A program made the translations under genes and the position numbers. Source: Candidatus Niyogiibacteriota bacterium (GTDB taxonomy: Bacteria; Patescibacteriota; Minisyncoccia; JACROR01). From it: 37,878 nt of DNA. Numbering within the stretch: position 1 is the stretch's first letter; each line of letters starts with the position of its first letter. Shown here piece by piece: positions 2,325 to 28,537 of this stretch. The stretch is taken from positions 1 to 37,878 of the forward strand of contig JACROR010000016.1 in NCBI GenBank assembly GCA_016214345.1. The letters are read 5' to 3'. Below the pieces are notes generated by a model. It ran no database searches. It worked only from the letters and a program-made list of their open reading frames with translations, and was not told where the DNA came from.

Positions 2325-2403
2325 AAATAGCTCCCTTCACTGAATATTTTATTTTTAAAAAACTAACCATTTGCCTGCTCCGGCCGCCCTTCATTTTATT
2401 CAG

Positions 2404-2476
2404 TCCGCCCAGTAGGACTCGAACCTACGACCATCAGCTTAAAAGGCTGTTGCTCTACCAGCTGAGCTATGGGCGG
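2404..2476 (-). tRNA. tRNA-Lys (anticodon TTT)
   Basis: Acceptor CCGCCCA/TGGGCGG; D-arm GCTCAGCTGGTAGAGC; anticodon loop CTTTTAA; T-arm GTAGGTTCGAGTCCTAC. Confidence 0.95.
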
Positions 2477-2512
2477 GAACAATATTGCTATTCTTAAAGT
2501 CTACCCGTTGTG

Positions 2513-2557
2513 GCTCTACCAGCTGACCTGCCTGCCGGCAGGCAGGGCTATGGGCGG
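2513..2557 (-). pseudogene. Partial tRNA-Lys 5' copy with a 20-bp palindrome inserted in the D-arm
   Basis: gctctaccagctga | CCTGCCTGCCGGCAGGCAGG | gctatgggcgg; flanks match the intact tRNA-Lys exactly. Confidence 0.85.
2527..2546. repeat. Palindrome family A, copy 1 (CCTGCCTGCCGGCAGGCAGG)
   Basis: Perfect 20-bp self-reverse-complement; identical copy at 28049-28068. Confidence 0.9.
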
Positions 2558-27687: not shown

Positions 27688-27714
27688 CTACCTGGCTATC
27701 CGATAGCCAGGTAG
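27688..27714. repeat. Palindrome family B, copy 1
   Basis: CTACCTGGCTATCCGATAGCCAGGTAG: 13-bp arms around a 1-nt centre; core shared with sod insertion at 34434-34456. Confidence 0.9.
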
Positions 27715-27991: not shown

Positions 27992-28036
27992 ATATTATTT
28001 TATGAATCGCAAACCCGACTTTCTCGTTCCGTAATA

Positions 28037-28075
28037 TGCGCAGGGAGGCCTGCCTGCCGGCAGGCAGGGATTCAA
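28037..28075 (-). pseudogene. tRNA-Tyr 3'-end fragment with family A palindrome inserted in the T-arm
   Basis: tgcgcagggagg | CCTGCCTGCCGGCAGGCAGG | gattcaa versus intact tgcgcagggagggattcgaa. Confidence 0.85.
28049..28068. repeat. Palindrome family A, copy 2
   Basis: Identical to 2527-2546. Confidence 0.92.
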
Positions 28076-28096
28076 TTTCCTCCTAGGGAAATTCCG

Positions 28097-28117
28097 CGGA
28101 GTGCCCCCGGCACTCCG
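28097..28117. repeat. Palindrome family C
   Basis: CGGAGTGCC-CCC-GGCACTCCG; related sequence AAATTCCGCGGAGTGtCCCCGGC at 27383-27405. Confidence 0.75.
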
Positions 28118-28188
28118 TTCGAATCCCTTCTATATATTACAAAGTCCGTGCAAAATCAATGCGCATGCGCCATTCTCGTTCCGCAATA

Positions 28189-28229
28189 TGCGCAGGGAGG
28201 TATTCGAACCCCCGTAGGCCGTAAGGCCG
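28189..28229 (-). pseudogene. tRNA-Tyr 3'-end fragment, second copy
   Basis: tgcgcagggaggtattcgaacccccgtaggccgtaaggccg, 40/41 identical to the intact tRNA-Tyr. Confidence 0.92.
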
Positions 28230-28285
28230 TCCCTCACCTTTCACAGATAAATTGCGTAGGAAAGCGAAGTAAACTTTCCTTCAAA

Positions 28286-28370
28286 TGCGCAGGGAGGGAT
28301 TCGAACCCCCGTAGGCCGTAAGGCCGCTTGGTTTACAGCCAAGTGCGATTGACCGCTCTGCCACCTGCGC
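28286..28370 (-). tRNA. tRNA-Tyr (anticodon GTA) with long variable arm
   Basis: Acceptor GCGCAGG/CCTGCGC; anticodon stem-loop CTTGG-CTGTAAA-CCAAG; T-loop TTCGAAT. Confidence 0.95.
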
Positions 28371-28427
28371 ATTTGAAGAAATCTTTCCACTAATCATTTT
28401 GATTTTCAATATATAAAGATGAGGGAT

Positions 28428-28473
28428 GCGATTGACCACCCCGCCCAAGGCGGGCAGGTCTGCCACCTACGCA
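28428..28473 (-). pseudogene. tRNA-Tyr 5' fragment interrupted by a GC palindrome
   Basis: gcgattgacc | accCCGCCCAAGGCGGGcagg | tctgccacctacgca versus intact gcgattgaccgctctgccacctgcgca. Confidence 0.85.
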
Positions 28474-28537
28474 TTCTACGACTGTGGTTAACTTAATATT
28501 TCTAAATCATATTATAAAATCACGGCTCTTGCAATCC

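Follow-up and report, generated by a model that had tools for sequence, protein, structure and literature searches.

A 20-bp palindrome that probably inserts as a very small unit, found in displaced tRNA ends of a Patescibacteria-like genome and in several other phyla

The window analyzed here, a contig of 37,878 nucleotides from a Candidatus Niyogiibacteriota bacterium, raises the question of how a perfect 20-bp palindrome came to lie in the D-arm of a partial tRNA-Lys gene beside an intact, uninterrupted one. The features are listed in Table 1. The stretch 2513–2557 consists of GCTCTACCAGCTGA, the palindrome CCTGCCTGCCGGCAGGCAGG (2527–2546, here called the 20-mer) and GCTATGGGCGG. In the tRNA sense, the displaced copy starts 81 nt upstream of the intact gene and runs from nt 1–11 through the 20-mer to nt 12–25. 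Both halves are identical to the intact tRNA, with no bases lost and no target-site duplication, so that the first-pass annotation, made from the sequence alone, was correct in describing a clean insertion into the D-arm of a duplicated tRNA-Lys 5′ end.

Table 1. Features of the window at the tRNA-Lys and tRNA-Tyr loci.
Feature	Position	Strand	Remark
Intact tRNA-Lys(TTT), the empty site	2403–2476	-	
Spacer, displaced 5′ end to intact tRNA-Lys	2477–2512	.	36 bp; without nuclease gene
Displaced tRNA-Lys 5′ end, nt 12–25 (D-arm)	2513–2526	-	TCAGCTGGTAGAGC, equal to intact nt 12–25
Perfect 20-bp palindrome CCTGCCTGCCGGCAGGCAGG (element)	2527–2546	.	Empty copy 61 bp away
Displaced tRNA-Lys 5′ end, nt 1–11	2547–2557	-	CCGCCCATAGC, equal to intact nt 1–11
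Palindrome CTACCTGGCTATCCGATAGCCAGGTAG	27688–27714	.	Of the family flanking the Y1 gene at C15 (L184)
Displaced tRNA-Tyr 3′ end, nt 75–87	28036–28048	-	Broken by second copy
Second exact 20-mer copy	28049–28068	.	
GATTC (tRNA sense GAATC)	28069–28073	-	T-arm remainder beyond second copy
Further displaced tRNA-Tyr 3′ end	28188–28229	-	Uninterrupted
Intact tRNA-Tyr(GTA)	28285–28371	-	
Displaced tRNA-Tyr 5′ end	28427–28474	-	D-arm split by a different palindrome, CCCGCCCAAGGCGGG (28440–28454)

The annotation had also reported the same 20-mer in a different tRNA fragment about 25 kb away. This copy is indeed present, and the fragment is a displaced tRNA-Tyr 3′ end: the 20-mer stands in the T-arm between GAATC and CCTCCCTGCGCAT, just before nt 75. 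The two copies lie in different tRNAs (Lys and Tyr), in different arms (D and T) and between unrelated flanks, and are therefore two separate insertions. Both do occur within tRNA remnants, as would be expected if one segment had been duplicated, but the differences in tRNA, arm and flanks refute a single duplicated segment as the source of both. Chance occurrence in GC-rich sequence fares no better, since 100 shuffles of the window gave no match, even at 3 mismatches, and a matched palindrome is missing from 384 genomes (below). We regard one duplication or chance, taken together, as a negligible prospect.

The annotation proposed several checks: counting the 20-mer in the genome and its relatives, comparison with composition-matched palindromes, comparison of filled and empty sites, enrichment at tRNA flanks, and a search for a Y1 transposase. 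The window's own genome (691 kb, Patescibacteria-like) contains 10 exact copies, against 7e-8 expected from a zero-order model, and 29 at up to 3 mismatches, a few of which are overlapping readings of one copy. Within the class, exact copies were found in 125 of 384 sampled genomes, with up to 22 per genome. The control palindrome, which is the 20-mer reversed and so has the same composition, has no copies in the own genome or in the 384 class genomes; since the 20-mer reversed is richer in CpG, this is a good control rather than a perfect one. Among the matches listed, contig labels indicate Omnitrophota, Bacteroidota (including several cultured isolates), Nitrospirota, Elusimicrobia, Planctomycetes, Verrucomicrobia and Chloroflexi, and the 20-mer also occurs in 33 viral stretches. 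Its variants, for example CCTGCCTGCCGGTAGGCAGG and ACTGCCTACCGGTAGGCAGG, keep the palindrome nearly intact, and the 20-mer itself has a predicted hairpin energy of -13.9 kcal/mol. A search of open-access full texts for the 20-mer, its 14-mer core and the peptide LPAGRQ (see below) found no paper, and an earlier description may exist elsewhere. We also note a relative of the 20-mer in a viral contig (L272, 3916–4140), which forms a tandem array of units of about 21 bp, CCATGCCTACCGGCAGGCAGG.

When the 20 bp were removed and the joined flanks compared with all available sequences, 67 of 265 distinct copies had an uninterrupted twin without any gap at the joint, although for a few of these empty sites the evidence is weaker because the sequence is simple or repetitive. 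The clearest pairs have identities of 97% over 119 bp (L172), 94% over 121 bp (L120), 94% over 102 bp (L080), 98% over 59 bp (L227), 98% over 50 bp (L091) and, in a viral contig, 100% over 34 bp (L270). Target-site duplications are absent at 20-mer insertions generally. The element is also found nested: in one case it lies in the palindrome GGCTATCCGATAGCC, splitting GGCTA/TCCGATAGCC, which belongs to the family that flanks a Y1 gene in the own genome (L007, L184); in another it splits a copy of itself (L048); and in a third it lies inside a related palindrome (L104).

The choice of site is only loosely constrained. At insertion sites T is disfavored at -1 and A favored at -1 and -3, but this bias is weak and nothing beyond it was found, so a target motif was rejected. 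Insertions are located in hairpin loops more often than expected (19% versus 10%, p 0.025), an excess too weak for strong hairpin-loop targeting. Pairs of 20-mers do not bracket an autonomous element: the pairs at L106 and L084 enclose, or sit within, ordinary genes.

The 20-mer thus occurs as dispersed identical copies with clean empty sites, in independent insertions, across phyla, nested in other palindromes and, as described below, in frame in housekeeping genes. We consider it probable that it is a non-autonomous and very small palindromic element, inserted as a unit with a net gain of 20 bp at clean sites. The original proposal of a miniature palindromic mobile unit tied to tRNA remnants was largely right; mobility is read here from fixed products only. 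Few known DNA elements that look mobile are as small as the 20-mer.

The first comparison to be made is with REP elements moved by a Y1 (TnpA_REP/RAYT) transposase. Single-strand transposition by HUH enzymes leaves no target duplication, which would suit the clean sites. The 20-mer resembles REPs and REPINs in being palindromic and present in many copies, and its size also fits, REPs being palindromes of 20–40 bp (PMC3733652, excerpt). Its own genome does contain RAYT-like genes: the Y1 search found six Y1_Tnp genes, and private palindromes stand on both sides of at least four. The 20-mer is not among these palindromes, however, and no Y1_Tnp gene is flanked by a 20-mer pair. The situation is similar for most of 20 Y1 genes from other Patescibacteria, which lie near paired palindromes of their own families. 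Over 26 Y1 loci, none is flanked by a 20-mer pair; at two of them a lone 20-mer lies about 1.5 kb away or nearer. Furthermore, 5 of 16 copy-rich genomes have no Y1_Tnp match; these genomes are 94–100% complete and carry 22 (G150), 21 (G348), 15 (G341), 14 (G239) and 11 (G123) copies.

The arrangement of the copies also differs from that of REPs. There is no GTAG/CGTC-type tag, and 163 copies have no conserved flank save the weak -1/-3 bias. The mobile unit of REPINs is a closely spaced inverted doublet (PMC3116915), whereas 20-mers are singlets, with a neighbor within 150 bp for 0 of 22, 0 of 15 and 2 of 26 copies. The suggestion of REP-like behavior therefore fails in the strict sense: the 20-mer has no tag, no doublets and no adjacent or required RAYT. 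We reject REP/RAYT as the sole origin and rate a REP identity for the 20-mer, with movement by a Y1 transposase, as very unlikely; the inserting enzyme need not be a Y1 transposase. As a separate observation, the Y1 (RAYT-like) genes in L180, L181, L182, L184 (own genome), L186, L189, L190, L192, L193, L195–L197 and L199–L203 are mostly bracketed by private palindromes of about 19–49 bp, with a different family for nearly each gene. These look like many independent RAYT-REP pairs.

Two other kinds of element are closer. The Nostoc SDRs described by Elhai and colleagues in 2008 are reportedly hairpin-forming sequences of about 21–27 bp, dispersed and nested, from a subgroup of cyanobacteria, and we know of no enzyme that moves them. 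The 20-mer shares with them the hairpin, the dispersed distribution, the nested insertions and the precision of insertion seen at its empty sites, and is one base shorter than their range. Precise insertion is described for SDR5, into HIP1 (PMC4390886, excerpt). Unlike SDRs, the 20-mer is a perfect palindrome, is letter-identical in several phyla, is tied to displaced tRNA ends and occurs in frame in protein genes. This last feature recalls the Rickettsia palindromic elements (RPEs), which are around 100 bp or more (about 100–150 bp) and confined to Rickettsia. Like RPEs the 20-mer is palindromic, dispersed and present in frame in RecG, LigA, chorismate synthase and others; the 20-bp unit falls short of RPE length, however, and adds only about 7 residues. 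The annotation's comparison with RPEs holds better than that with REP because of the in-frame copies, notwithstanding the greater length and restricted host of RPEs. By described features, our best reading is that the closest known kind is the cyanobacterial SDRs and, for the copies in protein genes, RPEs.

In-frame copies were found in RecG (L111, L177), the NAD-dependent DNA ligase LigA (L236), chorismate synthase (L094), phosphoglycerate kinase (L162), UvrC (L232) and a Mur ligase (L136), and a variant copy is in frame in DnaG of the own genome (L026). The insert translates as LPAGRQ or similar. It amounts to 7 residues in one RecG (L111) by comparison with the solved RecG structure 1gm5, and to 8 residues in LigA by comparison with 4glx; alignments of phosphoglycerate kinase and chorismate synthase isolated no clean 7-residue gap. 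An in-frame copy requires a net length divisible by 3; selection has thus preserved those copies that stay in frame, and not every insertion adds exactly 20 bp. It follows that LPAGRQ-like residues in Patescibacteria proteins can be palindrome insertions and not native sequence.

The proposed link to tRNA remnants is real. Of 26 copies in the own genome, 8 are no more than 100 bp from one of its 46 tRNAs, a zone that makes up 1.7% of the genome (p 8e-9). Most of these copies are in partial, apparently displaced tRNA ends adjoining intact tRNA genes, and the 20-mer or its variants occur in displaced ends of tRNA-Lys, -Tyr, -Ile, -Leu and -Ser. Over the wider set, matches to tRNA fragments (5–15 bits) run across the excision joint at 9 of 188 copies, compared with 1 of 5290 control sites. 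In 41 of 261 cases the 20-mer occupies one half of a local direct duplication and the other half is empty, compared with 22 of 2416 random sites; for non-coding sites only, the figures are 18 of 129 and 184 of 5975 (p 1.8e-7). This is a 4–5 fold excess over other non-coding DNA, for which neutrality alone falls short. The clear cases of duplication are mostly tRNA genes, with the 20-mer in the outer partial copy and the intact gene free of it.

Three further loci deserve mention. Two viral contigs (L263, L242) have similar tRNA sequences; in one the 20-mer precedes the T-arm and in the other it replaces part of it. At the extreme end of an Agriterribacter humi contig (L069), a near-complete tRNA-Arg(TCT) has the 20-mer in its D-arm; this may be either a fork in the assembly or a second copy that is interrupted.

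Displaced ends are common in the own genome: a survey around its 46 tRNAs found seven 5′ and eight 3′ ends, and the tRNA-Leu (C26) and tRNA-Ile (C17) loci add one of each. Other hairpins occur in or next to the D- or T-arm of displaced tRNA-Tyr, -Arg, -Cys, -Met, -Leu and -Ser, and a strong hairpin is present in 10 of 18 displaced ends compared with 15% of non-coding controls, a comparison biased by the choice of several ends for their 20-mer. In a sister genus (G001) the order dnaK, dnaJ, membrane protein, tRNA-Lys is conserved, and the segment between the membrane protein and tRNA-Lys contains CCGCCCATAG-TTCTCCACCAGCTGGCGGA-TGGTAGAC. This resembles, and is likely to be, the same displaced tRNA-Lys 5′ end, interrupted close to the same position by a different, imperfect palindrome; with only 10 + 7 nt matching, homology is likely rather than proven.

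The different palindrome in the G001 remnant and the unrelated ones in the own genome suggest that a hairpin may be favored in displaced ends; either that is so, or these ends are insertion hot spots. If selection favors hairpins there, the 20-mer would be one of several interchangeable hairpins that stop the leftover from folding, or from pairing or competing with the intact tRNA, or that act as a processing signal. Such selection leaves unexplained why identical copies also occur between genes, inside protein genes and within other palindromes, and some displaced ends are uninterrupted (the further tRNA-Tyr 3′ end of Table 1) or carry another insertion (Phe, Ala). We find this explanation unlikely.

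What displaced the tRNA ends is suggested by nuclease genes. A GIY-YIG ORF lies between a displaced end and the intact tRNA at L045, L160, L270, L091 and L233, of which Pfam confirms three, and of the 4 GIY-YIG genes of the own genome, 3 have a tRNA no more than 130 bp away (p 4e-5). At one locus (L329, C1), beside tRNA-Ala, the gene separates the displaced 5′ end from the intact one and is enclosed by inverted repeats CCCTCACCCAGAAAGCCTTT. The motif CCCTCACCCAGAAAGCCTTT recurs after a displaced tRNA-Phe 5′ end (L031). We infer that a small homing-type element brought the replacement tRNA end, and that at tRNA-Lys only the short spacer (2477–2512) is left. A possible analogue of the displacer is SegB of phage T4, a free-standing GIY-YIG homing endonuclease that targets a tRNA region, although the passages on SegB mention no partial tRNA duplications of the kind found here (PMC2988022, excerpt). 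A SegB-type system would account for the displaced ends, but not for the palindrome.

A repair process could in principle supply both. In this explanation a GIY-YIG nuclease cuts the D- or T-arm and a copied hairpin sometimes seals the break, so that cut, duplication and palindrome are one process. The position of the GIY-YIG ORFs, in several genomes and one viral contig, and the precedent of SegB favor it, as do insertion points that recur: TAGC/TCAG (window, L160), GGTAGA/GC (L045, L134, L163) and GGTA/GAGC (L159, L227, L270). However, a GIY-YIG ORF was detected no further than 400 bp from just 11 of 203 copies (5.4%, versus 2.3%), so that a general link between the nuclease and the 20-mer is moderate only, and the majority of copies are outside tRNA. 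We consider the 20-mer very unlikely indeed to be repair filler. It is also distinctly unlikely, though less so, that the 20-mer spreads between phyla by a non-Y1 pathway that produces no target duplication and is coupled to tRNA-invading GIY-YIG elements whose tRNA remnants bear hairpins, which would make it the smallest known mobile DNA, with a new mechanism of insertion.

For a palindrome inserted as a unit, the following sequence of events may be envisaged. Small insertions at tRNA genes, often with a GIY-YIG gene, would bring a replacement end and push the old end aside. The displaced ends, because they are dispensable, would tolerate palindromes, where insertion into a working tRNA would be lethal. 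The least certain step would be entry of the unit while replication or break repair is under way, in the form of a single-stranded hairpin with an 8-bp stem and a CCGG loop; such entry would account both for the lack of a target duplication and for the slight preference for insertion in hairpin loops.

These sites provide a dense natural series of filled and empty positions for one very small element that behaves as if mobile. Its carriers are a third of the sampled genomes in a major, mostly uncultured class, together with cultured Bacteroidota such as Winogradskyella echinorum and Maribacter halichondriae, so that what moves tiny palindromes (REP singlets, SDRs, RPEs) becomes testable in growing organisms. 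The partial tRNA copies beside intact genes in these small genomes may be footprints of tRNA-invading GIY-YIG elements.

Finally, we note a similar structure adjoining displaced 3′ ends of tRNA-Tyr, -Ser and -Asp (window 28069–28130, L023 and L282). The T-arm in reverse complement comes first, followed by two hairpins, one GC-rich (GGAGTGCC..GGCACTCC) and one AT-rich (AATTTTCC..GAAAATT), and then by the T-arm again; the structure is possibly another tRNA-targeting element.
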